From contig JAQVNC010000011.1 of the NCBI GenBank assembly GCA_028703305.1, positions 1 through 36,110 of the forward strand: a stretch of DNA of 36,110 nt, read 5' to 3'. The number at the start of each line of letters is the position of its first letter. Positions within the stretch are counted from its first letter, which is position 1. Below, one piece after another: positions 3,148 to 36,110 of the stretch. Below the pieces are notes generated by a model. It saw nothing but the letters and a program-made list of their open reading frames with translations, had not been told where the DNA came from and did no database searches. The position numbers and the translations under genes are program-made. This DNA is from Patescibacteria group bacterium (GTDB lineage: Bacteria; Patescibacteriota; Patescibacteriia; Patescibacteriales; GWC2-42-12).

Positions 3148-3606
3148 TTATTTAACGTCTAAAATTTCGTAAACTATGCTGCCGCGGGGCGTGTTGACCG
3201 TTATTTTTTCGCCTTTCTTTTTTCCAATAAAAGCTACGCCCAAGGGCGATTCGTTGGAAATCATGCCTTCTGCCGGATTAGCCTCGTTAAAGCTAACAAT
3301 GGTAAATTCTTTGGTTTTGCCTTCGGCGGCGGCGGTTACTTTTGAACCCATGCCGATTTTATGCTTATCGCCGTTGCTTTGCACAACCGTCACATTTTTT
3401 AACAGAGCGGTTAGCTCGCCGATGCGCCCGTCGTTAAAAGCTTGCTCGTCTTTAGCTTCGGCGTATTCGGCATTCTCGCTCAAATCACCCAGCTCTTTCG
3501 CCGTTTCAATACGGCCGGCGATTTCCAGCCTTTTAACGCCAAGCCTTTCGTCAAGTTCTTTTTTTAATTTATCATAGCCTTCTTGGGAAATAATTTGATC
3601 AGGCAT
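3148..3606 (-). CDS. greA: Transcription elongation factor GreA
   Basis: This 152-residue protein rescues backtracked RNA polymerase by stimulating cleavage of the nascent transcript. Seen: an N-terminal antiparallel coiled coil (about residues 1-75) whose tip carries GDLSENAEYAEAKDEQ, including the acidic residues placed in the polymerase active site, then an FKBP-like C-terminal domain ending RGSIVYEILDVK with the family's SPLGVAFIGKKKGE element. Length is slightly below the usual ~158. It is monocistronic, with its own promoter (3651-3679) and terminator (3105-3134), between the polysaccharide cluster and the lysS operon. Confidence 0.95.
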   Translation of the reverse strand: MPDQIISQEGYDKLKKELDERLGVKRLEIAGRIETAKELGDLSENAEYAEAKDEQAFNDGRIGELTALLKNVTVVQSNGDKHKIGMGSKVTAAAEGKTKEFTIVSFNEANPAEGMISNESPLGVAFIGKKKGEKITVNTPRGSIVYEILDVK

Positions 3607-3650
3607 AATGTTAATAAAATTTTAATTATAATTAAAATTGCATAATTTAC

Positions 3651-3679
3651 AATATACAGGAATTATAAGATTTATGCAA
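3651..3679 (-). promoter_or_regulatory. Candidate promoter of greA
   Basis: Minus-strand TTGCAT (3679-3674), a 17-nt spacer, then TATATT (3656-3651). Start of transcription near 3644 would leave a leader of about 38 nt before the ATG at 3606. A second, weaker pairing (TTGTAA with TATAAT) lies just downstream. Confidence 0.5.
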
Positions 3680-3690
3680 GTGGGAATAGA

Positions 3691-5265
3691 TTAAAACTGT
3701 CTGTCATTGCGAGCGACCGAAGGAAGCGAAGCAATCTCGGATTTATTCCGACTAACCGGAGATTGCTTCGTCGCTAACGATCCTCGCAATGACAAACGTT
3801 CCATCATCACCGCAACAACAATCAGATAGCCTATGCCCAGCGGATGATTGGCATACGGACTGAATATGTTGACCGCTAGAATCACTATTAAGCCGGCGGC
3901 TAGAGATAAAGAGCAATTTTTCAAGCCGTCAAAAATAATTTTAAAAAATAAAGTTAAATAGGCCAGCAATCCTAAAATTCCCAATTTTAACCAGATATCA
4001 AGCCAGCCCCATTCAAAAGCATAGGTCGTGTATTCGCCTTTGGGGTCAACGGCCAAAACCCGCGGATCGCTGGATTTATAAGTTACGGTGGCGCCAAAGC
4101 CTTGGCCTAAAATCGGCGCGCTTTTAATTTTTTGCCATAACGACGGCAGTAATTGCCACCTTGACGAAGCGCCGGCCTCATTGGCAATTTGGGTGGCCCT
4201 TTCGCTTAATAAATTCGTAGCGTCAAATTCGCCCGAGGGCATCGGATAAGGAAATTTTATAACAAAAAAAGTAAAAGCCAAGCTTAAAATAATCACAACC
4301 GCGATCATTGAATTAAAAATAACAAATTTTTTTAAATTAATTTTTAATTTAAAAATCGCGGTTAGCCAGACAAACAAGCCGCCGGCCGTAAGGCCCAGCC
4401 AAAAACTTCGTGAAAAGCTGATTATGATGGCTGATAATAATAAAGCGCTAAAGCCGATTAAGCTATAAGTTTGTTTATTTAAGGCGGTTTGCCGTTCGGT
4501 TAAATTTTTTAGCAAATAAAACAGCAAAATAAAAAATCCGATTAAAACGAAAATATGCGATTGCATGAATATTCGGTTAAATCCCGGGACGACTTGGGTT
4601 ATTTCCCCGATTCCGCTTTGGCGCACCCAAAAATAAAGATCCGGGCTGAAAAAATTAAAGCTATGCGAAAAAATATAAGCCAAGATAATCGTTTTCGCGC
4701 TAAGCCAGCTTATGGATGCTAAAAAAATTTGCTTAACTATTTTTAAATTATCATCGGCCTGCCAGACGGAGAATATCGGAAAAACCAGCAAAAAATAAAG
4801 CCAATTATTAAAATCAAAAAACAAATTGTTTAAAGAGTTATTGTTAGCCAGGCCGTTTAAGGCGCCTAGAATAATAAAAATAAATAAAACAAAAAAATAT
4901 TTGGCGTAAGAAGATTTAAAAAAATCAATTGATAGTTTTTTTGTCTCGGCCAGTTTAATAATTGCCCCGGCCAGCCAGACCGACATAATAATCAGCCATA
5001 AAGCTATGCGAAGAGAAATTTTAAAGCCATTAGCTTCAAAATAAAATAAATAGCCGAAAGAGCCGATTAGGAGTTCGGCCAGAAGAATATATAAACCATA
5101 TTCCAAGCGGTATAATGAAATAAATAATACTAAAACTATTATGGCGAAAAAGGCAATGAAATTGACCGATGGAAAATAATAGCCTAAAAACGAAAGCAAC
5201 TCGGCTAAAATTATGAATAGCAGAGTATTTTTTATGATTTTTTTATTGGCGAAAAAATCAGCCAT
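3691..5265 (-). CDS. O-antigen polymerase/ligase-type membrane protein (Wzy/WaaL family)
   Basis: This 524-residue protein is strongly hydrophobic, with about ten or more membrane segments across residues 15-490. It has the typical large periplasmic loop containing SSRWQLLPSLWQKIKSAPIL and GQGFG, followed by YAFEWGWLDIWLKLG, a pattern of the O-antigen ligase (Wzy_C) superfamily. Such proteins polymerise or transfer lipid-linked glycans outside the membrane. It follows the GT2 gene by 3 nt and closes the polysaccharide cluster. Odd: the last ~34 residues (about 491-524) are translated from a palindromic repeat (3702-3794), so the original C-terminus was probably replaced or extended by that insertion. 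Confidence 0.78.
   Translation of the reverse strand: MADFFANKKIIKNTLLFIILAELLSFLGYYFPSVNFIAFFAIIVLVLFISLYRLEYGLYILLAELLIGSFGYLFYFEANGFKISLRIALWLIIMSVWLAGAIIKLAETKKLSIDFFKSSYAKYFFVLFIFIILGALNGLANNNSLNNLFFDFNNWLYFLLVFPIFSVWQADDNLKIVKQIFLASISWLSAKTIILAYIFSHSFNFFSPDLYFWVRQSGIGEITQVVPGFNRIFMQSHIFVLIGFFILLFYLLKNLTERQTALNKQTYSLIGFSALLLSAIIISFSRSFWLGLTAGGLFVWLTAIFKLKINLKKFVIFNSMIAVVIILSLAFTFFVIKFPYPMPSGEFDATNLLSERATQIANEAGASSRWQLLPSLWQKIKSAPILGQGFGATVTYKSSDPRVLAVDPKGEYTTYAFEWGWLDIWLKLGILGLLAYLTLFFKIIFDGLKNCSLSLAAGLIVILAVNIFSPYANHPLGIGYLIVVAVMMERLSLRGSLATKQSPVSRNKSEIASLPSVARNDRQF
3702..3794. repeat. Palindromic element, family A copy 1 (inside the Wzy-like CDS)
   Basis: An inverted repeat with outer arms TGTCATTGCGAG/CTCGCAATGACA and inner arms GAAGCAATCTC/GAGATTGCTTC, giving about 36 bp per arm with a ~20-nt centre. 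Copies of the family are at 5976-6068, 31766-31901 and, as a half element, 35980-36018. This copy encodes the final residues of the Wzy-like protein. Confidence 0.88.
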
Positions 5266-5975: not shown

Positions 5976-6068
5976 TGTCATTGCGAGCGACCAAGGGAAG
6001 CGAAGCAATCTCACGTACTCGGATTTTAACCGGAGATTGCTTCGTCGCTTACGCTCCTCGCAATGACA
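5976..6068. repeat. Palindromic element, family A copy 2 (intergenic)
   Basis: Same outer arms (TGTCATTGCGAG/CTCGCAATGACA) and inner GAAGCAATCTC/GAGATTGCTTC arms as 3702-3794, and the same total length of 93 bp. It fills most of the 110-nt gap between the GT4 and GT2 genes, 11 nt upstream of the GT2 start, so any RNA hairpin would sit in the GT2 leader. Confidence 0.88.
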
Positions 6069-20563: not shown

Positions 20564-23500
20564 CTAGTCAGCGGCGATAAAGCTGCCGGAACCGGTTGAC
20601 CAGAGCCAGTAGCCTTTACCATGCTGTAAGTAAGAGCTGGTTTTATCAGCATTGTTTTGATCATATACCATATATCCGCTTGGTATGGTGGAAAGATAAG
20701 TTGAGGTATTTTTATAAGCCGTAACCGATTTATAGCCGATTAAATTCCAGCCGGAGATTACGCTATAAGTTGAAGGCGGGTTTGGCGCGGCCGGGGCCGA
20801 AGTTCCGGTTATGGTTAGAGTTGCCGAATTAGTCATGTTAATCCAATAGCCTTTGCCGTCTTGCATGGTTTCTAAAGTTCCGCCAACGTCTGGCGTATAA
20901 GCTTTCCAGGTTCCGGCGTCATAATATTGGACTACCGTAGAAGTGCCGACTCCGCTGATGCCTAAAAGTACGGTAGCGATCGCCGTATTAGACGGTATTA
21001 TCGGGAAAGAAACTAAATTCCAACCCGAGCTTAAGGCGATATCGCAAGTATAAACTCCGGCTACCGGTCCGGTACAAATTGAACTCGGATAAGTTACCGG
21101 GGTTGCCAAAGTGAAAACATTATTGCTGATATCTGATCCGGTTAAGCTGGCCGCGTCAGTAGCGGTAACTTTTATCATAGCGTTAGCTGAAGTCAAGCCG
21201 GTCGGCGTCCAGGAATAAGCGCCGTCATTATCAGTATCGGCAATAATTGTAGTCCAAGCGCCGCCGCCGTCCGTGGAATATTCCAATTTTACATCAAGGC
21301 TGCCGGCCGCGGTTATATTATCGGTCGCGGTCCAAGTTATAATATGCGCTACGGTATTATCCCATGACTCGCCGCCGTTCGGGCTGTTTAAAGCCGCGAC
21401 CGGAGCGGTTGAGTCGGTAACTACCGAATAAGTAATGCTAAAGGCGCTGCTTTCAGCGGTCGTGGCATTAGTGGCTAAATCAGTGGCAATAACTCTTACC
21501 TTGCCGTTAGAAGTATTGGTTGATGGCACGGTCCAGCTTTCCGTTCCGTCGTTTGAAGAACTATCAACGATATTAGTCCAGCTTGAGCCGCCGTTAATGC
21601 TATAATCAATTTTCATTGAAGTGGCGCTAAGGTTTGTGTCAGACGCGGTCCAGCTAATAGTATAAACATTGCCGCCGGTTAAAGTCTGGCCGGTGAACAT
21701 GCTATTTAGAGTTAAAGCCGGCACGGTATTGTCCGTATTTAATTGCCCGACATATCTATAGCCGACGTTACCAAAACTATCAGTTGCTTCAGTGCAAATA
21801 TAATTAGTGCGATTGCCGGTTATGGAAAAATCAACTCCGCTGGTAAATGAATTCCCGTAAGTATCCGAGCCATTACAAGTCGCATCGTCGCTATAGCCAT
21901 ATTCCGGGGTAACAGTATTGGCATCAACAATAGTTACATTAATAGTATCGGTCTTAACCGGCCCAGCATCGGTTCCGCTTACTACCGTTAAAACCGGCGC
22001 GACAACATCTTTGTCTGCGGTCGGAGTGGCTGTAGCCGCGCTGACATTGCCTGACGCGTCAGTAGCGGTTACCGAAGGGGTAATAACACCGTCGTTAAGA
22101 GATGAGCCGTCTATGGTAATTGAATAATTTCCGCCTGTGGCTGTACCAGAACCAGTAACCGTATGAGCAGGACCAACGTCACTTAAGCTAACGTTAACTG
22201 TGCTATTTGCTTCAGCCGTACCAGTTATTATAATAGCCGCTTTTTCTGAATCATTTATTTTTTCATTTCCGGCGATATGAGAAATTACCGGAGCAGATGG
22301 AGCGTCTGCATCTTTAGTCGCAGTATCAGTACCAGCCGAGCCAGTGTTACCGGCTGCATCAGTTAAAGTAACGCTCGCGGTTAACGTGCCGTCAGCAAGA
22401 GCGGAAACATTAACGCCGGTAATATTGATTGAACCAGCGCCGGACACAGTGCCGGCTCCGGTTACTGAACCGCCACCACCGCTAGTTGTAATAGTATAAG
22501 CGATAACAGCATTTGCCTCGCCAGTGCCGGTAATAGTTGCCGCGGTTTTGTTTGCGTTATTTATTGGATCAAGCAAGGTAATGGTTGGAGCGGTTGGAGC
22601 CGCAACATCTTTAGTCGCAGTCGGTGAAGTTGCCGCTGTACTAACATTCCCGGCCGCGTCGGTCGCGGTTACGGATGGAGTGATGGTTCCGTCAGTCAAT
22701 GCAGTGCCATCAATAGTAATTGAATAAGACGTCGCTCCGCCTACCAATTGTTGAGTACCGGATACTGTCGCTACATTGGTTAGAGAAACGGTTACCAGAG
22801 AATTAGCTTCAGCCGTACCGGCAACAACGATTGTTGCTTTTTCTGCATCATTGATTACATTATCTGTAGCGATTGAGGAAATAACCGGAGTACCTGGCGC
22901 GGCAACATCTTTAGTTGCCGTTGGGTCAGTATCAGCCGCGCTGGTATTGCCGGCCGCGTCAGTAGCGGTTACGGATGGAGTAATAGTGCCGTCTGTTAAG
23001 CCCGAAGCGTCAATTGTGATATCATAAGCGCCGCCTCCGCTTGCACTTCCCGTGACTGGACCGGCAGTCGCAACGCCAACTAAGGTAACGCTAACGGTTG
23101 AGTTTGCCTCTGCTGTTCCGACTACGTGCACTGCGGTTTTTTCGCTATCATTAATATAGTTATCACCCGCGATTGAAGTGATAGTTGGAGCGCTAGGAAC
23201 GCTAGCGTCTTTTGTCGCGGTATCGGTTCCGGCAGGTCCAACGTTGCCCGCGGTATCAGTTAAAGTAACTGAAGCGGTCAATGTGCCATTATCCAAGCTA
23301 GAAACATCGATCGACGTAATCGTCTGGTCTCCGCCCGTCAATGTTCCTGTGCCGGTTACCGGTGAACCTGGGCTTGCGTCTTCAATTGAATAATTATAAG
23401 TTGTTCCGGATTCACCAACTATATGAAGAGTTGCCGCTGTTTTATTGGCGTTATTTATCGGGTCAAGCAAAGTAATTGTTGTTGGCGCTACCGGCGTATG

Positions 23501-26500
23501 ACCATCAATTGTTTTAGCAACATCGCTTCCATCTCCAGCAGAACTCGTATTTCCTGCCGCATCAGTAATAGTTACTCCGGTAATTTGCAAAGCTGAAGTC
23601 CGGTCAGTGTTGCCTTCGGCAATGGTATAAGTAGCATTAAAGGTCGCGCCGGCATCCGCGGTGCTCCATGATAAAGCAACTCCGTTATATGAGCCGGTAA
23701 CCGAACCTCCGAGTTCGGCTGAGCCCGGAGTTAAGGTAAATATAATAGTATTACTTACTTTCAACCAACCGGCAACCGTAGCGTTTGAAGTAATTGATGA
23801 AATAGTAGGAGCAGCGACGTCTTTTAAGGCCGTTGGATCTGTATCAGCCGAGCTAACATTGCCTGCCGCATCAGTGGCGGTTACGGACGGAGTGATTACG
23901 CCGTCGTTAAGAGATGAACCGTTTATACTAATTGAAAAATTTCCGTCTGTTGCCGTGCCGGAACCAGTCGCAGTATGCGCGCTACCAGCATCAGCTAAAG
24001 TAACATTAACCGTGCTGTTTGCTTCAGCCGTACCGGTCACTATAATAGCGGCTTTCTCTGAATCACCGATTATTTCATTAGTGGCAATATGCCCAATTAC
24101 TGGAGCGGTTGGAGCCGCAACATCTTTAGTCGCGGTCGGCGAAGTTGCCGCTGTACTAACATTCCCGGCCGCGTCAGTGGCGGTTACGGATGGAGTAATC
24201 GTGCCGTCTGTTAATGTAGCTCCGTTAATAGTAATTGAATAAGCTATCGCATCGCCGGCTAATTGCTGGCTGCCGGTAACGGTTGCTCCGTTAGTTAAGC
24301 TTACATTTACCAATGCGTTAGCTTCGGCTGTACCGACTACTACGATAGCGCCTTTTTCCGCATTATTAATTTTATTATCAGTTGCTATTGAAGTAATAAC
24401 TGGAGCAGCCGGTTTATTCGCATCAATGGTTTTAACTATATCAATTCCGGCTCCGGCAGCACTGGTATTTCCATTCGCATCAGTAATAGTTACTCCGGAA
24501 ATTTGCAAAGCTGAAGTTTGATCAGTATGACCCGCGACTATAGTATAGGTAGCGGTATAGTGAGCGCCTGCATCCGCGGTGCTCCACGTTAAGGCAATCC
24601 CGTTATACGAACCGGTAACTGAACCTCCATCTTCGGCTGAACCCGGAGTTAAGGTAAATGTGATAGTGCCACCTATTTTTAACCAACCGGCTCCGGTTGC
24701 GTCTGAAGTAATTGATGTAATAGTAGGCAAAACAGTATCTTGCGTCGCTGTTGGAGCAGTATCAGCCGCGCTGGTATTGCCCGCCGCGTCAGTCGCGGTT
24801 ACGGATGGAGTGATTGTGCCGTCTGCTAAAGAAGCCGGAAGAGCGGCAGTTCCATCTAAGGTAACGCTAAAAGCAGTTTCTCCGCCAGAAAGCTGCTGCG
24901 TTCCGGTTTTGCTGTTTGCTCCGTTAGTTAAAGTTACAGATACCAAAGCATTAGCTTCAGCCGTACCGGTTACTATGATAGCGGCTTTTTCTGAATTATT
25001 TATTTTTTCATCCGTGGCAATATGGCCAATTATAGGGGCGTCTGGTGCAACCACATCTTTAGTCGCAGTATCAGTTCCGTTAGTGGCCGGATTGCCCGCG
25101 GCGTCAGTAACCGAACAAGTCGCGGTTATAGTTCCGTCGGCTAACGCACCAAGCGCGGTAGAGGCAATCGTAACTGCATTACTGCTAACCGCTCCGCTAA
25201 CCGGACCAACACTGCCAGATGTGCCGGTGATAGTACATGAAACCGTGCGACCGTCTTCTAGGCCAGTTGTAGTAATCGCGATATTAACTCCGCCGGCCGC
25301 ATCAGCCGCGTTCACATAATCGTCAGCCCCAAGCGCTACGGAAGCAAAAGTTGGGACAACAGTATCTTTAGTAATACTAGAAGCGCCGGAAGCTGCTCCG
25401 ATATTGCCGGCCGCGTCAATAATTTTAACGGTTAATGATTTGGCGCCATCGGCTCCTAAATCGGTAATTGATTGAGCATTGCCGGTTAAAGTATATTCTG
25501 CGCTGCCAGCTACAACTGCAATCGTAACCGGAGTCGCGAATTCAACACCGCCCACATACAAATGAGCCGTGCCAGCATAATTAGCTGCCGGGCTAGTGAA
25601 AGTTAAAGTAAAGCCGGTATTAGTGCTATTAATACTAGCGGCAACTACGGTTCCACCAACTGCGGTAAATGTGCCAACGACTGGAGCAGTTGGATTTATA
25701 GTATCTATATTGAATGTAGCTTGAGTATCTAATCCTTCTGCGTTCCCGGCAAGATCTTGAGCTAAGGAGCTATTTACTGTTACTCCGGCCGTTTCTTCGT
25801 TTAAGTCAGAAATAGTAAAATGTTGATGCCAAACATTGGCCGCCGTCCAACTTCCAGCGGCAGGCGTCCAGACGCCGGTAGTAGCGCTAAAAGTAATAGT
25901 CGGGGTTGAAGCCGGATTCATATTTTCATTATAGGTAACCGTCACTCCTTGATCTAAATCGCCTTCGTAAATTGTAGCCGTATCTACTGTTACTGTTCCG
26001 GTCGGCGCCGTAGTATCATAGGTCACACTGCCATTGCTGATTTGCGTGGCCGCATTGCCGGACGCGTCAGTCGCATTGAAAGTTACGGTGTAAATTGTGC
26101 CGCTGATTAATGAGTGTGCCCAATCAACACAAGCATTGACGCCAGTTGCTAAAACTAAATCAGTATGAGCTCCAGAATTTAAAGCTGTTCCTTGCAATGT
26201 ACATGTGTGAGTAGGATTAGCATCATCTGTACCACCGCTTCTGGTGAAAGTAATCACTCCGCTAGCGGCAACCGCGGCTTCGCTTAGAGTATAACTAACT
26301 TCTTGGTCGTTAATGAAATCACTGGCGGCCGGTTCGGTAGAAGTTATAGTAGGCGCGATGCCGTCGGTCGGAGTTGAAGATAAACTGCCGGTAATTATGT
26401 TGAGCGTTGAAGCATCTTTAGTATTAACCGGAGATCCTATTGTAGTGACATTTGGCGTATCTCCAGTGCCCATGGCGTCAACCGTAAGAACCGCTTTAGT

Positions 26501-27757
26501 TGTATCAACTTGTAAAACCGCGCTGGCGATTGTATGCCCGGTTACGCCAAAATCAGTTTTATCAACCGCGCTCATAGTTTCGGTAAAAGTAACTTCTATT
26601 GTAGTCGTGGTTAAAGTTCTAGTTGAGGCAATATCCGGTTTAATGCCATCTACCGCAGTAACGGTAACTGGCGTTATCGCCGTATTCGGAGAAACTGCCA
26701 AATCATTTAATGTATCTAATTGAGTATAGGTAACATTTGGAGTTGCCCCGGCGCCTAGAGCTGGCGCGTAAGTCAAGGTAATAACACCTGGCGCGGTTTC
26801 GCTTGCCGCGGATACCGTTGTACCGGCTACGTTAAATTCACTGCCTGAATCATTAACTGTAGCCCCATTCAAATCTTCACTAAAGGTTGCTCGGAGTGTT
26901 GTAGGTGAAATTGTTTGGGCTGACATTAATTTTGGTTTTGCCGCGTCAATTTCAGCCACAGCGCCACCATTAACATCGGCCAATAAATTTCCGACTATAT
27001 CAGCGCCTGACCCAGCGCTTTTAGTATAAGTAACGTCTTTAGCCTCGGTGCCGGTTACGCCGCCAGCAACCAATACATCAAAAGTATTATCATCGGCCGT
27101 GCCATATACAATACTTGTACCGGCCGAACCGCCGATATTAAAATCGCTGGCGGCCGAAAAAGTTGAATCTTGAACCGCTTCGCTAAAAACGATGGTAGCG
27201 GTGTCAACCTTGCCGTCGACATCTGCATCTTTAGTGGTTATAGAGGAAATTGTCGGCGCCGTGGCATCTACGGTAGTTAAGGGATTATAAGTATGGGAAA
27301 CAAAAGCATTATCTTTTGTTGCAACAGACCAGGCAATTGCCGAGTCTGCCCCAGGCGCTGTAGCCGAAAAAGAAACATTAGCACTGCCGCCTACCGCAAT
27401 GCCAAGGCCGACACCCGGATCAGGATCGCCGGTGCAAGTCGCGACTGAAGCGGTATTGCCCGATGTCCAGCCTGCCGGACAAGATAAACTGCCATTAATT
27501 GTAAAACCGGCCGGCGCAGTAATAGTTATGAGATATATAAAATTGCTGGAGCTACCATCATTAGCGAGATGAAAAGTATATGTTTTTGTTGACGCACCTT
27601 TTACTAACGTTTGATCGACCGTCACCGTTGCCGTATGCGCGGCAAAAACGTAGTTAATCACAAAAAAACCGCCAATCAAAATGACTGCGGCCAACAATAA
27701 AAATATCTTTTTTGATATTTTTTTAGGAACTACCCCAAGCGTAAGGTTTGTCCACAT
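20564..27757 (-). CDS. Giant Ig-like repeat surface adhesin
   Basis: This 2397-residue secreted protein has an N-terminal hydrophobic signal (~17-40, IFLLLAAVILIGGFFVINY). Residues ~41-900 hold diverse beta-sandwich domains with invasin/Big-type borders (DATAPTISSI, DTTAPTGTV). About ten ~100-residue repeats at ~900-1930 carry the pattern INxxEKxAIxVxGTAEAN...DGTITPSVTATDAAGN...ATKDVAAP. Then come two domains with SWTVPSTNTSNGKVRVIATD-like edges, and a C-terminal ~158-residue region with two SGWNLVSF/GKGYW units. Repeats of this type form long stalks in bacterial adhesins. No LPxTG or transmembrane anchor is visible at the C-terminus. It is first in a three-gene operon. Very low Cys and Ala/Thr/Val-rich composition fit an extended extracellular fibre. 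Confidence 0.88.
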   Translation of the reverse strand: MWTNLTLGVVPKKISKKIFLLLAAVILIGGFFVINYVFAAHTATVTVDQTLVKGASTKTYTFHLANDGSSSNFIYLITITAPAGFTINGSLSCPAGWTSGNTASVATCTGDPDPGVGLGIAVGGSANVSFSATAPGADSAIAWSVATKDNAFVSHTYNPLTTVDATAPTISSITTKDADVDGKVDTATIVFSEAVQDSTFSAASDFNIGGSAGTSIVYGTADDNTFDVLVAGGVTGTEAKDVTYTKSAGSGADIVGNLLADVNGGAVAEIDAAKPKLMSAQTISPTTLRATFSEDLNGATVNDSGSEFNVAGTTVSAASETAPGVITLTYAPALGAGATPNVTYTQLDTLNDLAVSPNTAITPVTVTAVDGIKPDIASTRTLTTTTIEVTFTETMSAVDKTDFGVTGHTIASAVLQVDTTKAVLTVDAMGTGDTPNVTTIGSPVNTKDASTLNIITGSLSSTPTDGIAPTITSTEPAASDFINDQEVSYTLSEAAVAASGVITFTRSGGTDDANPTHTCTLQGTALNSGAHTDLVLATGVNACVDWAHSLISGTIYTVTFNATDASGNAATQISNGSVTYDTTAPTGTVTVDTATIYEGDLDQGVTVTYNENMNPASTPTITFSATTGVWTPAAGSWTAANVWHQHFTISDLNEETAGVTVNSSLAQDLAGNAEGLDTQATFNIDTINPTAPVVGTFTAVGGTVVAASINSTNTGFTLTFTSPAANYAGTAHLYVGGVEFATPVTIAVVAGSAEYTLTGNAQSITDLGADGAKSLTVKIIDAAGNIGAASGASSITKDTVVPTFASVALGADDYVNAADAAGGVNIAITTTGLEDGRTVSCTITGTSGSVGPVSGAVSSNAVTIASTALGALADGTITATCSVTDAAGNPATNGTDTATKDVVAPDAPIIGHIATDEKINNSEKAAIIVTGTAEANALVSVTLTNGANSKTGTQQLSGGETAFSVTLDGTAALPASLADGTITPSVTATDAAGNTSAADTAPTATQDTVLPTITSITSDATGAGWLKIGGTITFTLTPGSAEDGGSVTGSYNGIALTWSTADAGAHYTATYTIVAGHTDQTSALQISGVTITDANGNTSAAGAGIDIVKTIDANKPAAPVITSIATDNKINNAEKGAIVVVGTAEANALVNVSLTNGATVTGSQQLAGDAIAYSITINGATLTDGTITPSVTATDAAGNVSTAATSPTATKDVAAPTAPVIGHIATNEIIGDSEKAAIIVTGTAEANSTVNVTLADAGSAHTATGSGTATDGNFSISINGSSLNDGVITPSVTATDAAGNVSSADTDPTALKDVAAPTISSITSNATVAGWLKVSNTIIFTLTPGSAELGGSVTGSYNGVALSWSTADAGATFNATYTIAEGNTDRTSALQITGVTITDAAGNTSSAGDGSDVAKTIDGHTPVAPTTITLLDPINNANKTAATLHIVGESGTTYNYSIEDASPGSPVTGTGTLTGGDQTITSIDVSSLDNGTLTASVTLTDTAGNVGPAGTDTATKDASVPSAPTITSIAGDNYINDSEKTAVHVVGTAEANSTVSVTLVGVATAGPVTGSASGGGAYDITIDASGLTDGTITPSVTATDAAGNTSAADTDPTATKDVAAPGTPVISSIATDNVINDAEKATIVVAGTAEANSLVTVSLTNVATVSGTQQLVGGATSYSITIDGTALTDGTITPSVTATDAAGNVSTAATSPTATKDVAAPTAPTITLLDPINNANKTAATITGTGEANAVIAYTITTSGGGGSVTGAGTVSGAGSINITGVNVSALADGTLTASVTLTDAAGNTGSAGTDTATKDADAPSAPVISHIAGNEKINDSEKAAIIITGTAEANSTVNVSLSDVGPAHTVTGSGTATGGNYSITIDGSSLNDGVITPSVTATDASGNVSAATATPTADKDVVAPVLTVVSGTDAGPVKTDTINVTIVDANTVTPEYGYSDDATCNGSDTYGNSFTSGVDFSITGNRTNYICTEATDSFGNVGYRYVGQLNTDNTVPALTLNSMFTGQTLTGGNVYTISWTASDTNLSATSMKIDYSINGGSSWTNIVDSSSNDGTESWTVPSTNTSNGKVRVIATDLATNATTAESSAFSITYSVVTDSTAPVAALNSPNGGESWDNTVAHIITWTATDNITAAGSLDVKLEYSTDGGGAWTTIIADTDNDGAYSWTPTGLTSANAMIKVTATDAASLTGSDISNNVFTLATPVTYPSSICTGPVAGVYTCDIALSSGWNLVSFPIIPSNTAIATVLLGISGVGTSTVVQYYDAGTWKAYTPDVGGTLETMQDGKGYWINMTNSATLTITGTSAPAAPNPPSTYSVISGWNLIGYKSVTAYKNTSTYLSTIPSGYMVYDQNNADKTSSYLQHGKGYWLWSTGSGSFIAAD
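21960..25060. repeat. In-gene tandem repeats (~300 bp) of the adhesin
   Basis: Roughly ten units, each bordered by a conserved AACATCTTTAGTCGCRGT-like segment (for example near 22008, 22300, 22606, 22907, 24116 and 25044). The shared internal stretch GCGTCAGTAGCGGTTACGGA recurs with few changes. Some unit pairs are close enough at DNA level to recombine. A second repeat type (encoding GSVTGSYNGIALTWSTADAG) occurs twice, near 23640 and 24570. Confidence 0.85.
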
Positions 27758-30628: not shown

Positions 30629-31759
30629 CTAAATTTTATCTTTTTTAATCAGCGCCTTAACTTCATTTATCATTTTAAGGTAAAACTCAAGATTATTCAA
30701 GCTGGCGAGCCTTAAGGCCAAAGGTTCGCCAATCTTAAATAAATAGTTCAGATATGCCTTGGAATAACGCCGTAATTCCGTCAGTTCGCTTAATCCGTTA
30801 ATTGGGGAAAAATCTTTAGAAAATTTGGCATTGGTTATGTTAATGGTCTCGTAAAAATTATTCGCTTTTAGGCTTAACGGCTTTTTTTTAAAAAAAAGTT
30901 TTCCATGCCGGCCTTCCCTGGTCGGGATAACGCAATCAAACATATCCCAGCCGAATTGGACAGACCTGATAATATCTTCAGGCAGGCCGATGCCTAAGCC
31001 GAAGCGTAATTTATTTTCCGGAATTTGCCCGGCCGTGTATTTTAAAGCGCCGGCTAAAAAATTTCCGGCTTCATCAACATGCCGGGCGCCAAAGCCAAAG
31101 CCGTCAAAGCCGATTTTAATTAATTCTTTAGAGCAATGCTCCCTTAATTTTAAATTATCGCCGCCCTGGATAACGGCAAAGAGCAGCGGCTTTTTATTAT
31201 TTTTAAGCGGCTGGCTTAATTTATCATATTCCCGCCTGCATCTTTTCGCCCATTTAATCGTCCTTTCAACCGAAGCGGACAGCTCGGCGTCGTTGTAGCC
31301 GTTGGGCGGGCAGTCGTCAAAACAAACGATCATATCCGCGCCTAAAGCAAACTGGGTTTTTATGGACAATTCCGGCGTCATTTTTAATTTAGCGCCGTCT
31401 AGCGGTGATTTAAAAATAGCGCCTTTATCATTGATAGCGCCATTAATTCCGTTTTTACGGATTAAGGAAAAAACCTGGTAGCCGCCGCTATCGGTTAAAA
31501 TCGGCTTTTGCCAATCCATAAAATTATGCAGGCCCTTGGCTCGCTTGATTAACTTCGCGCCCGGACGCAAAAATAAATGCAAAGTATTGGCTACCAGGCA
31601 TTCTAGATTCAAATTATTTAAATCTCCCGCACTTAAATGTTTTATTACTCCCCTGGTGGCATCAGACATAAAAATCGGCGTTTCCAGATTGCCGTGCGGA
31701 GTTTTTATTAGGCCGAGGCGCGCGTTGGATATTTTTGACTTATGAATTATTTTAAACAT
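30629..31759 (-). CDS. tgt: tRNA-guanine transglycosylase homologue lacking the zinc site
   Basis: This 376-residue TIM-barrel enzyme resembles bacterial TGT, which swaps guanine 34 of GUN-anticodon tRNAs for preQ1. Seen: LTDSGGYQVFSL with Asp90 (general acid/base), FDDCPP at 147-152, VIQGG at 196-200 and FDCVIPTREGRHG with the nucleophile Asp275. Two departures: GFGFGARHVDE (220-230) stands where TGTs have GGLSVGE, which touches the base; and the zinc ligands are gone, with NGLSELTEL (321-329) in place of the CxCxxC region and Asn355 instead of the His. I start at 31759 (MFKIIHKS), because the upstream in-frame ATG at 31771 lies inside a palindromic repeat. Confidence 0.87.
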   Translation of the reverse strand: MFKIIHKSKISNARLGLIKTPHGNLETPIFMSDATRGVIKHLSAGDLNNLNLECLVANTLHLFLRPGAKLIKRAKGLHNFMDWQKPILTDSGGYQVFSLIRKNGINGAINDKGAIFKSPLDGAKLKMTPELSIKTQFALGADMIVCFDDCPPNGYNDAELSASVERTIKWAKRCRREYDKLSQPLKNNKKPLLFAVIQGGDNLKLREHCSKELIKIGFDGFGFGARHVDEAGNFLAGALKYTAGQIPENKLRFGLGIGLPEDIIRSVQFGWDMFDCVIPTREGRHGKLFFKKKPLSLKANNFYETINITNAKFSKDFSPINGLSELTELRRYSKAYLNYLFKIGEPLALRLASLNNLEFYLKMINEVKALIKKDKI

Positions 31760-31765
31760 GGCATC

Positions 31766-31901
31766 TGTCATTGCGAGGAGCGACTAAGCGACGAAGCAAT
31801 CTCGCGTACTATTTATTAAAACTTATAGATTGTTTCTTGCTATAAAGGTTTGTTATATTTAAACTGTTCGTGAGATTGCTTCGCTTACGCTCGCAATGAC
31901 A
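31766..31901. repeat. Palindromic element, family A copy 3 (long-centre form)
   Basis: Outer arms TGTCATTGCGAG/CTCGCAATGACA and inner GAAGCAATCTCG/GAGATTGCTTC, as in the other copies, but with a ~68-nt AT-rich centre instead of ~20 nt. It fills the gap between the DUF11-like gene and tgt and supplies an in-frame ATG upstream of the real tgt start. Confidence 0.85.
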
Positions 31902-31909
31902 AAAAGAAA

Positions 31910-33874
31910 TTATTGTACTATTCCATCCCCCGCCGCCATGCTATCGTCTTCAAGCTTGGTATTTTCGGCTTTCAATGTCTTGCTGATTTGCGTATTAGTC
32001 TCGCTGTCAATGGCTGTAACGACCGTGCCGGGCAGGATTATCATAACTTTATTCCTATCGTCTTCACTCGGCGCAACGCTTATATTAAATTCAGCGTCGG
32101 CTTTATAAACCGTAACCGGCAAATCGCCAATCTGCCAAATGACTTGATTGGCCTGGCCATCGTAATACAAGGAGCCAACCGATGCCCTGTTTTTACTATC
32201 CCAGCTTACGTTATTAGGCAAAGCTACGCTGATCCGCAAATTTTTTAATTCATGCAGATTATTATTTATGGACCAATAAACTTTTAAGCTGGTAGCTTGC
32301 CCGACTTTAGGCGGGATCGGCCCGGAGCCGACAGCGATATTGTCATCATTAAAATATCTGACCTGCTCTGATAAATTCAAGTCGCTGTTTATTTTATTAA
32401 TAATAGTGTTGCTCTGGCTGTCCTCGGGGGCGCTTTTCCCGCCGATGCTGTATTTTACGTAGCTTTTTACCTGATAAGCTTTGCTTAAGTCAATCTCGGT
32501 TTGGCTTTTTAATTTAATTGAAAAATCTATTACGCCTTCGGCGCCGCTCACTAATTCGGCCAGTGCCGGAATTTCCTGTTTGCTCCAGCTAATAGTATTG
32601 CCACTGACCGCGCCGTTATTCTGCCCGCTTAAGCTCTGCCAATTTAAAAAATCACTTTCTAAAACCGCCATGATAATAACGTCCTTCATAACCGAGTCGC
32701 CTTTATTGGCATAATTGATTGAATAGTTTAAGGTCTGGCCGAAATCAACGCCCTGATCAAAGGGCGAACCGTTAATTATCAAATTTATGTTCAAATCGCT
32801 TTTAACCACGTCGTAAGCGAGGTCTTTTTCATAAAATGAATGGTATTTCGCCGGCGTAGTTGAAGCTTGCTCCGGCAATGCAAATTTTAATTTAAGGTTA
32901 AGACTGGGAGATTTTTTTTCTTTAATCTTAAATTTAATTTTAAATTCATTTTCATTTTTGCCGAAATTACTTAAAAGCCAGGCGCCCGGACCGCTTTGCG
33001 CGATAGTCAAGCCGGCGGGCGCAGATGAGCTTGAAGCGTTAGCTAATTCGGCGCCAATTATTTCCACTTCTTCAGGGTGCTCAACGCTTAAACGGAAATT
33101 ATCAATATAGTTTTCAATTTTAGCTTTAAATTTAACCACGATCTCATTGGTTTCATTGATCAGCGCGCTTGAAGCGTTATTAAATGAAAAATCAAGACCA
33201 ATATCGTTTATTTTAGTTTCAAAACTGGTTGATTTTTTAAATTCGCTGGAAAAATTTTGCGGCGTGTACGCCATATCAGCCAAAATAATATTGCCTGAAT
33301 CAGCCGGTCCGGCCAATTTGCCTTTTATCCGGATGGAGCCGCTCCTATGAGAATCTAAACTATCTATTTCCCAGATATTATTATTATGGCCGGGCGCGGG
33401 GTCTGAACTTAAAAATATAAAATTATCCGGGTAAGTTGCTTTTATTTCAATCTTAGCCAGGCCGACTTTATCTTCATTTTTATAATTTAAATCATAATAA
33501 AATTCTTTGCCGGCAACCACTTCTTTAACGGCGTCAAATTCAAGGGAGACCGAAGATTTGCCGTTGATCATCTTTAAATAAATATAATTATAAGCGCCAT
33601 AAATCGCGCCGCCAAGGACAAAAACCACAATTACAAAAGTAAATAAGTTAAACAGCAAGCCGCGTTTTGGCCTAATTTCCATTTTTTTTACGTCAACTCT
33701 ATTGCCTTGGTCGTCTTGATAAATTCTCGCCAAACCATCGCTTATTTCCTTCTCTTTAATTTCGCTTTCAGCGTATTCGTCAAAAGCTTCCGCTTCTTTA
33801 TCCGAGGCTAAGGGGCGCTGAACGAATTCCGATAAGCTGGAAGAGCTTTGCTTTATTTTTATTTCGTTTTTCAT
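31910..33874 (-). CDS. Single-pass membrane protein with extracellular DUF11/CARDB-like domains
   Basis: This 654-residue protein has an acidic cytoplasmic N-terminus (1-70), one membrane helix (~73-97, LFNLFTFVIVVFVLGGAIYG), then an all-beta extracellular part. Repeated Ig-type segments with FDQGVDFGQTLNYSINYANKGDS, KVGQATSLKVYWSINNNLHELKNL and NNVSWDSKNRASVG match the general DUF11/CARDB pattern of archaeal and bacterial surface proteins. No catalytic motif is visible. It lies 35 nt after the DUF4012 gene and probably shares a transcript with it. A TATAAT at 33889-33884 could also start a near-leaderless transcript. Function is likely structural or in surface assembly. Confidence 0.72.
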   Translation of the reverse strand: MKNEIKIKQSSSSLSEFVQRPLASDKEAEAFDEYAESEIKEKEISDGLARIYQDDQGNRVDVKKMEIRPKRGLLFNLFTFVIVVFVLGGAIYGAYNYIYLKMINGKSSVSLEFDAVKEVVAGKEFYYDLNYKNEDKVGLAKIEIKATYPDNFIFLSSDPAPGHNNNIWEIDSLDSHRSGSIRIKGKLAGPADSGNIILADMAYTPQNFSSEFKKSTSFETKINDIGLDFSFNNASSALINETNEIVVKFKAKIENYIDNFRLSVEHPEEVEIIGAELANASSSSAPAGLTIAQSGPGAWLLSNFGKNENEFKIKFKIKEKKSPSLNLKLKFALPEQASTTPAKYHSFYEKDLAYDVVKSDLNINLIINGSPFDQGVDFGQTLNYSINYANKGDSVMKDVIIMAVLESDFLNWQSLSGQNNGAVSGNTISWSKQEIPALAELVSGAEGVIDFSIKLKSQTEIDLSKAYQVKSYVKYSIGGKSAPEDSQSNTIINKINSDLNLSEQVRYFNDDNIAVGSGPIPPKVGQATSLKVYWSINNNLHELKNLRISVALPNNVSWDSKNRASVGSLYYDGQANQVIWQIGDLPVTVYKADAEFNISVAPSEDDRNKVMIILPGTVVTAIDSETNTQISKTLKAENTKLEDDSMAAGDGIVQ

Positions 33875-33909: not shown

Positions 33910-36110
33910 TTAAAGTCCTTCCACCACCACCGCCATTATTTCATCTTGATTTAAATCTTTGGCCATTAACCAGCCGTTTTTGCCGGGATCTAAATCGGCC
34001 GGATATTTCCAAATTGTTTTAAGTCCGCTCGGCAATTCCAATTCGCTCTCTATGGTTGACGAATTCATGCCCGGCTGTTTTTGCGTTAAAAGCGAATATG
34101 AATATAAATTTTTATCGCCCGGGTTTAAAATCGCGTCCGCTTTTTTAATCAGCTGATTTAACAATTCTTGGCTAACGGCTTGTTTTTTATCGGTTAATTT
34201 AAAAGGCAGCTTGTATTTTATGCTAATTTCAACAGTTTCTCCGGGATCAAGCTGGGACCAGTTGGCGAAGACGGTTTTATTAAACTCATTATAAATTTTT
34301 GTGCCGCTTGATTTATCGGTTAGCGCTTGACCTTCGCCGGCTAAAACTTCCGGATCATCAGTTAAGCCCTCGGCTTCATTATCAAAAAATATTTTATCCA
34401 CCGGCTTAAAGCCGCCGGCTTCAATTAATTCAGAGCCGAGCGGCACGTAGACTCTTAGCCAATCAACGTTTCTGACTCCGGAAAAAGGTTCGCGCTTGAC
34501 CGCTTCATGGGTTCGCCTGATGGTTAGCTCGTCAATAATGGAGCCGTCCGGCTGAATTTTGGCTTTGTGGATTATTTCCTGCTTGATTTTTCGATCGCTC
34601 TTGCCACCGGCGATATTGGAATTAACGACATTTAAATAATCGCCGGACGTGTCTTTGATTCTGCCGCTCCAGCCTAAATCGTCAGCCCTAGTCTCTAAAG
34701 CGGTGTCCGTGAAATAAAATAAAATATTTTTACCGGAGAGAGATTCTTCAAATGTTTTAAATAAAGGCGCCAAATTATCTTTAGTCAGCCGTTTGGGCAA
34801 TTCCTCAATAATTTTGTTCATTAAATCGCCGATTATTTTTTTCGGTTCTTTAGTTACGTCCGGTTTCTGCTCGGCTAATTTTTGCGTTTCCAGCCAAAAA
34901 TTATCCGCGTTAATCACCAGGCCGTATTTTTCTTTTAAATCAATCGGGCCGATTATGGTTAATAAATTTTCAATTACCGTGGGCGTAAAGCCAATTACGC
35001 CGTCAACCGTCGGGCCGTCGGAATTTTCATAAAACCAAGCCAGCTTCTTGGCGCTCGTCGGCCAATCAGGCCACCAATTAGCGTCCCAAAAATGCCAGTC
35101 GGCCCTAACTAGGCTTAAAGGTTCGGGAGATTTTATTTTTTTTAAAAAACCGGCTTCGGTATCATAGCTGCCGCCGCCCGGCACTTCAATATTTTTTATT
35201 TCGCCTTGGGAAAAATCCACTAAAGCAAAACTGCCAATAAAGCCGCCGGCAGCGCGCAGCTCGGAATTATTTTGAAAAACCAGCAGATAGCGCTTATCCG
35301 CGCTCATTCCTAAAAATTCTTTCAGGCTGTCGGCCAGGCCGATAAATTCTTTTAAGCCGCCGCTTAGCGAGCCGGCTTTTTGTTTTAATAAAATAAATTG
35401 AGCTTGATAGTCTTCCGGAATAACGCTACTGTCTATTTGGCTTAAGGCAACGTTTAATTCGTCTAAATTAATTATGGCGTTATGGCCGTAAAAAGTTAAA
35501 TCTTCCAATACATTATTGGCGCCGCTCTCTTTATAATTAAACAGTCCGGCCATAGCCAGGCTTAAATTCTGTCCGGCTTTGGCGCTTGATTCGCCGGCTC
35601 TTAAAATATTCTTGCCGGCGGCCGCCAGACGCATATTTTTATCCGGCATAACCGAGGCTAAAGCGAAGATTAAGCCGTTAATTTCTTCTAACTGGTTTTG
35701 CGCGCTTAAAAAATTATCGCCGGCTTGAGCAAAATTTTTGTCGGCCCGGTTAAAATCAAATCCGACCACGGCCCGGCCGCCGGCCATCAGGCTATTTACG
35801 GCGCTTTCACTTACGCCCAAAACCTTACCTTTAATATTATCAATAGTTTTATAATAGGTAAAAGCTTTAACCGGCAGAATTATAATAAATAAAATTCCGG
35901 CGAAAATCAAAGCCGGCTTTAAATAACCGATATTAGGCCGCGGCAATAAATCTTCTTTTTTAAAAACGAGGCTTTGCCCTGTAATTGCGAGCTTCTGAAA
36001 GAAGCGAAGCAATCTCACAGACACAGATGTTGCCACGGCTTGAGTTGCCTGGTAGCCGGTCGGCAGAGTGTTTAAAGCCCCAGATACGGCAGTTCGGGAT
36101 TTAAAAAACA
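33910..36110 (-). CDS. DUF4012 membrane protein (5' end outside window)
   Basis: The frame stays open to the right edge, so the true start is probably beyond 36110; the first in-window candidate is GTG at 36036 (708 residues). Counting from that GTG, a membrane helix lies at ~40-60, a helical region at ~75-235, and the DUF4012 domain begins near 245 with KRYLLVFQNNSELRAAGGFI and GGGSYDTEAGFLKKI. A C-terminal beta part follows (LDPGETVEISIKYKLPF). DUF4012 proteins are common in Candidate Phyla Radiation and Gram-positive genomes, often near glycan genes, and have no established activity. Residues 6-20 of that frame (SVRLLRFFQKLAITG) come from a palindromic half-repeat, so the repeat sits in the translated N-terminal tail. 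Confidence 0.85.
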   Translation of the reverse strand, partial: FFKSRTAVSGALNTLPTGYQATQAVATSVSVRLLRFFQKLAITGQSLVFKKEDLLPRPNIGYLKPALIFAGILFIIILPVKAFTYYKTIDNIKGKVLGVSESAVNSLMAGGRAVVGFDFNRADKNFAQAGDNFLSAQNQLEEINGLIFALASVMPDKNMRLAAAGKNILRAGESSAKAGQNLSLAMAGLFNYKESGANNVLEDLTFYGHNAIINLDELNVALSQIDSSVIPEDYQAQFILLKQKAGSLSGGLKEFIGLADSLKEFLGMSADKRYLLVFQNNSELRAAGGFIGSFALVDFSQGEIKNIEVPGGGSYDTEAGFLKKIKSPEPLSLVRADWHFWDANWWPDWPTSAKKLAWFYENSDGPTVDGVIGFTPTVIENLLTIIGPIDLKEKYGLVINADNFWLETQKLAEQKPDVTKEPKKIIGDLMNKIIEELPKRLTKDNLAPLFKTFEESLSGKNILFYFTDTALETRADDLGWSGRIKDTSGDYLNVVNSNIAGGKSDRKIKQEIIHKAKIQPDGSIIDELTIRRTHEAVKREPFSGVRNVDWLRVYVPLGSELIEAGGFKPVDKIFFDNEAEGLTDDPEVLAGEGQALTDKSSGTKIYNEFNKTVFANWSQLDPGETVEISIKYKLPFKLTDKKQAVSQELLNQLIKKADAILNPGDKNLYSYSLLTQKQPGMNSSTIESELELPSGLKTIWKYPADLDPGKNGWLMAKDLNQDEIMAVVVEGL
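35980..36018. repeat. Palindromic element, family A half copy (inside the DUF4012 gene)
   Basis: One arm only: TGTAATTGCGAG, CTTCTGAAAGAAGCGAAG, CAATCTCAC. It has one change in the outer motif (TGTAATT for TGTCATT) and a small internal CTTCTGAAAGAAG hairpin. It is read in frame as part of the DUF4012 protein's N-terminal tail. Confidence 0.75.

Follow-up and report, generated by a model that had tools for sequence, protein, structure and literature searches.

The Rickettsia palindromic elements RPE-1 to RPE-7 were reportedly described by Ogata et al. in 2000, and the protein-coding palindromic elements of Wolbachia are said to have been described by Ogata et al. in 2005. The published passages on Rickettsia state that RPEs occur as in-frame insertions in conserved proteins, for the most part at exposed positions, that RPE-4, RPE-6 and RPE-7 share an ATGAC motif, and that different elements hit the same loci (PMC3767692, PMC2229807), while an excerpt on R. 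conorii reports that its RPEs end in CGTC (PMC3733652). A passage in one of these sources ascribes a high ATGAC frequency to the Wolbachia elements, with the data not shown there (PMC3767692). For Coxiella, the relevant passages describe C-terminal overlaps of QMITE1 and QMITE2 with functional genes and, for strain Dugway, an enhC product whose final 33 residues are encoded by an in-frame QMITE2 that the stop codon follows directly (PMC5896051).

The family described here comes from another bacterial group. Like the Rickettsia RPEs, it consists of ~100-bp palindromes that are dispersed, also intergenic and found in frame in conserved proteins. The Wolbachia elements, likened by description, are protein-coding palindromes too, and the passage on Coxiella enhC and QMITE2, also likened by description and from a different organism, offers a close published precedent (PMC5896051). 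The sequence-only reading had drawn the comparison with Rickettsia, and the in-frame behaviour supports it. Membership of an RPE family does not follow, as the ends here are TGTC/GACA, in another phylum, against the CGTC given in the R. conorii excerpt (PMC3733652); the left end is TGTC in 31 of 32 complete copies and AGTC in one. The NCBIfam RPE1 and RPE4 models gave no match in the genome (the controls were likewise silent), nor did the NCBIfam RPE models match the tail peptides. In the open-access literature, no paper found named the element sequence, those containing the DNA motif seemed unrelated from their titles, and nothing on this element was found concerning palindromes in CPR/Patescibacteria. 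With a dispersed multi-copy palindrome, stop-free in-frame insertion in conserved genes and orthologues without it, this is, judged by its sequence features, a new family of a known kind, the protein-coding palindromes.

The element at the end of a Wzy_C-type gene

The window, that is, the whole stretch of 36,110 nucleotides analysed, is contig C20 of a genome (G000) of 925,016 bases in 37 contigs. The host is a Falkowbacteria-related member of the Patescibacteria; relatives bearing orthologues are labelled Falkowbacteria, Parcubacteria, Patescibacteria or bacterium, and a few Jacksonbacteria or Uhrbacteria. The features are as follows.

3691-5265, minus strand: open reading frame (ORF) of 524 aa for a Wzy_C/O-antigen-ligase-type polytopic membrane protein, with an element-derived C-terminus
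3796-5265, minus strand: residues 1-490, the putative ancestral part of this ORF, common to orthologues
3702-3794, no strand assigned: 93-bp palindromic element, the minus-strand reading of which gives residues 491-522
3691-3701, minus strand: right flank GA CAG TTT TAA, of which GA and the T at 3795 make TGA once the element is omitted
3625-3690, minus strand: greA leader with a conserved TTGC...TATATT promoter-like stretch, untouched by the insertion
3148-3606, minus strand: downstream greA-like gene, with the synteny kept in many orthologue loci
5976-6068, no strand assigned: second 93-bp copy, between two same-direction genes
31766-31901, no strand assigned: long-class copy of 136 bp that fills the gap between ORFs 31910-33874 and 30629-31771
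35980-36033, no strand assigned: half element, 5'-terminal in the DUF4012 ORF 33910-36036; the choice of start codon would make it coding or leader

The name greA is the one we presume for the 3148-3606 gene from its sequence, and the motif names for TTGC...TATATT are likewise our assumption, the pair not being listed by a consensus scan. The window also holds, at 20564-27757, a 2,397-aa protein with many diverged ~100-residue repeats and a repeat spacing of ~300 nt.

The element, with ends TGTCATTGCGAG...CTCGCAATGACA, had been taken to occupy all of 3691-3794 and to supply about 34 C-terminal residues. The codon map narrows both statements, as 3691-3701 belongs to the flank. Residues 1-490 are flank-encoded; L491, made of T from the flank and TG from the element, is the first element-derived residue, and R522, made of A from the element and GA from the flank, is the last, while Q523, F524 and the TAA at 3693-3691 are again flank-encoded. 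Thirty-two of the 34 residues after R490 come wholly or partly from the element, and no stop codon occurs from residue 490 to the TAA. The palindrome-derived C-terminus of the ORF is confirmed at this level.

The host protein matches PF04932 (Wzy_C) at residues 273-437 with an E value of 5e-13, and its AlphaFold model is a polytopic membrane fold predicted with confidence, at a mean pLDDT of 87.8. It had been called a Wzy polymerase, and the Wzy_C family assignment stands; since the WaaL O-antigen ligase 7tpg_B was the sole solved-structure match at E < 0.001, the product may equally be a WaaL-type ligase. The pLDDT is mostly 80-98 in the core and falls to ~45-55 after residue 500, which predicts most of the tail to be disordered. 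A selected, functional role for the tail as an enzyme domain is very improbable: the positive charge after the last helix, often seen in cytoplasmic tails, might suggest one, but it is opposed by the low pLDDT, by the lack of any family match for the tail peptides in Pfam or NCBIfam (the latter at E 10) and by the orthologues described below, none of which has a tail element. An assembly artefact, a repeat-driven misjoin at the end of wzy, is scarcely credible. Repeats do often break metagenome assemblies, but this copy is distinct, none of 31 other copies exceeding 84% identity to it, and the wzy-greA gene order on both sides agrees with relatives.

Orthologous C-termini and the proposed origin of the tail

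Alignment to orthologues without the repeat had been suggested as a check, and its outcome agrees with the proposal. Sixty-four orthologue loci were examined, of which 60 reach the C-terminus, giving 48 distinct C-termini, and the element is absent within 200 nt of the C-terminus in every one of the 60. Of the 48 distinct tails, 46 have their last residue within query positions 488-504, and the remaining two end at 513 and 520. The closest orthologue C-termini show 76% identity, and there was no close empty-site relative among the loci examined. G006 and G007 are element-rich genomes, yet are without the element at this locus (L002, L024). In both, the wzy ORF extends into the promoter-like TATATT stretch of greA and terminates in it, so the length of the tail is plastic in element-free loci too.

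When the flanks are joined without the element, the frame reads ...IVVAVMMER*QF* (asterisks are stops), with the T of one flank and the GA of the other making TGA; the orthologue L004 ends ...LYEK and has TGACA in the same column. As the joined flanks read ...MMER-stop, the ancestral stop was probably split (T|GA), and of the two possibilities first offered, that the palindrome replaces or extends the tail, extension is the most likely.

We judge it quite probable that a family element was inserted at the wzy stop, read through and left as a tolerated tail. In this lineage a non-autonomous REP/RPE-like palindromic element would have entered the wzy-type gene at its 3' end, most likely in the stop codon itself and with no target-site duplication. 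Since 93 is a multiple of three, the reading frame was kept; the ribosome would read TTG...AGA through the open 93-bp copy, and termination would have moved to the TAA 9 nt past the old TGA, adding 34 residues, 32 of them from the element. The tail so gained would follow the last membrane helix and is probably both tolerated and largely disordered.

As an end at residue 490 or earlier is seen in only two of the 48 distinct orthologue tails, insertion a few codons upstream with a small loss of bases is possible. The element would then have joined the frame shortly ahead of the ancestral stop, at the cost of a few target bases, and QF and the TAA at 3691-3693 would be original. This is consistent with the orthologue stops, which in 46 of 48 tails are offset from position 490 by -2 to +14 residues, mostly +2 to +10, and with the position of the TAA, 11 nt ahead of the promoter-like TTGC (13 nt in L022). 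Plain joining of the flanks already gives TGA, however, so a loss or change of bases has to be added, and there is no target duplication in the 32 complete copies, in which flank matches at k 1-11 were not above shuffles. Such an insertion within the old tail has a minor, though real, chance of being correct, and exact splitting of the stop is preferred.

The repeat family in this genome and its relatives

A search of the genome gave 58 matches, with the two palindrome strands counted apart, and 40 of 61 first-look candidates were scored. A spaced pattern occurred nine times per strand in this genome versus none in a reversed control. The match listing and this control together argue that the family is not due to chance. 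An nhmmer profile was run on the window and on 30 stretches of the genome chosen at blast hits, a sample rather than a full census, and it gave 44 family places, of which 34 are near full length and 32 complete at both ends. The complete copies have the common ends TGTCATTGCGAG and CTCGCAATGACA with few changes, and a variable centre that is A+T-rich in the longer copies. The copy at 5976-6068, which had been held to be the same element as that in wzy, is of the same family and does lie between genes, with 82% identity over aligned columns and not an identical sequence. Among 41 genomes (relatives, with this one included), 21 have matches at E 0.001 or better, and in a phylum-wide sample of 379 genomes the strict spaced pattern is present in 28, again including this one. 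No plasmid in the plasmid search matched the peptide; three phage records did over 32-36% of the query, and these are taken as weak arm matches, one of them sitting in a hypothetical protein of a Helicobacter canis prophage.

Five of six 93-bp copies are open in frame -3, and the 32 complete copies have 46 open frames versus 34.1 expected from dinucleotide shuffles, a modest excess that need not mean selection. The outer and inner stems hardly vary within the genome, and so give no covariation support for the structure; the side hairpins do vary, and the alignment there is poor. At a separate place (L101:1560-1660), another palindrome, GTCATTGCGGGCCC...GGGCCGCAATGAC, lies beside half an element where a pheS-like ORF begins.

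The copies favour gene junctions. Twenty-seven complete copies have a called gene on either side and lie wholly or mostly in the gap, and in 21 of them no more than 35 nt of the gap is left over. Gaps that short make up 304 nt of the 6,817 nt of intergenic DNA free of the element in these stretches, and the neighbouring genes run in the same direction. The binomial P of ~1e-23, or 6e-19 with the window gaps, is only indicative, as the genes were simple ORF calls (ATG, at least 80 aa) in stretches chosen around element matches. In 30 of the 44 places a start codon lies 6-15 nt from one end, and the other end is often just past a stop (L073-L102 and, in the window, 5976-6068 and 31766-31901). 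Given this bias, the insertion in wzy is just one step away from where the family usually settles. Five of the 44 places, wzy included, are clearly in genes and one, at DUF4012, may be; the rest are intergenic or overlap a mechanical start or a short ORF. ORFs starting inside elements (L074, L097, L099 and others) were not taken as in-gene, since mechanical start choice picks the ATG present in the element end (AATGACA). A 943-aa open frame at a copy in G003 was also set aside, as reading of the stretch did not support one gene.

The wzy copy is predicted to fold as an RNA hairpin of -54.1 kcal/mol (shuffle mean -26.7, z -9.4, none of 200 shuffles as good). Such stability, along with the mostly intergenic position of the copies and the short gaps that they leave, would suit an intergenic RNA hairpin, a REP-like stabiliser of 3' ends, for which the overlap with the ORF is accidental and most translation ends in or before the element through stalling or an mRNA cut. 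This is unlikely for wzy, where no stop intervenes between residue 490 and the TAA, and a family copy lies wholly inside the conserved MtaB, the C-terminal half of which needs read-through. No intrinsic terminator was found by a scan of 3560-3900, and the element has no Rfam family at the gathering score; its low-score Rfam matches were dismissed as chance.

REP/BIME sequences with RAYT are also palindromic, extragenic and often between genes, and here too there is a Y1_Tnp gene and no target duplication. REP sequences differ in having GTAG at the palindrome foot; the ends here are TGTC...GACA, GTAG is absent, and the flanks of the complete copies have no fixed tetranucleotide. The 32 copies do not show the target-site duplication of a classical MITE of a DDE transposase. 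Missing target-site duplication fits single-strand Y1-type elements (IS200/IS605, RAYT) better than DDE MITEs, and mobilisation of this kind may apply here. The one Y1_Tnp (IS200-like) gene in the genome (L127, contig C15:6-674) has a 223-aa frame matching PF01797 with an E value of 8.5e-8, and as a guess it could be the mobiliser. A RAYT gene would be flanked by the element; on the one visible side of this gene (C15:1-2500), which opens the contig, no element lies within 2.5 kb.

In-frame copies in other proteins

The suggestion that the family inserts in frame into proteins, as RPEs do, holds beyond wzy. One case is an MtaB-type tRNA methylthiotransferase on contig C30 (TIGR01579 above the cut-off), where a complete 93-bp copy, SLRGALATKQSPVNIRVREIASLLSVARND, lies in frame in the radical SAM region. 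At this spot extended linkers of other kinds occur in the relatives L114, L115 and L116, and the outgroups L117, L118 and L121 have shorter ones and no element. L114 gives weak matches to the element edges there (E 0.016 and 0.059), while L116 has a half element which by its position is at another loop. The same MtaB protein has a second, different palindrome-like insert (peptide SFRPPSRNPDFEAANKTSG...PAMTSG, L083:3742-3879), with weaker relatives elsewhere in its own and related genomes.

A second Wzy_C protein, P0002, has a remnant, LSLRGSVSDRSNLT, near residue 405, and similar peptides occur in L145 and L152. The latter, the P0002 orthologue of G006, has a complete in-frame copy at another loop (E 3e-23) that G000 is without. 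At this Wzy_C/IctB-like loop (L152:895-995), the L155 and L146 lineages have other insert-like linkers in place of the full element of G006, and by sequence comparison the loop appears to be an insertion hot spot. Two further tails involve the element, namely SVIASDRRERSNLTDSAHR in P0003, which is absent in L137 and L138, and the element-derived LSLREGAPAATRQSNE in the PMT_2-like P0004. With cases in MtaB, the Wzy_C loops and these two tails, the behaviour is RPE-like and recurrent.

A broader view can be put forward tentatively, and the chances are against it as a whole: the element would insert without target duplication, preferentially at gene junctions (just past a stop and ~10 nt before the next start) and repeatedly at a few protein loops in independent lineages, and would thereby keep supplying new C-termini and linkers, in this case by splitting a stop. 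Protein-coding palindromes, so far mainly from Rickettsiales and Coxiella, would extend to the streamlined, ultra-small Patescibacteria, where extra DNA inside genes is not expected. The wzy tail, if the account is true, would be a clean case of tail gain through stop-codon capture, and the MtaB and Wzy_C loops, with different inserts in different lineages, make the tolerance and later domestication of such peptides testable. LSLRG...ARND tails in such genomes are element-derived and not to be taken as domains.
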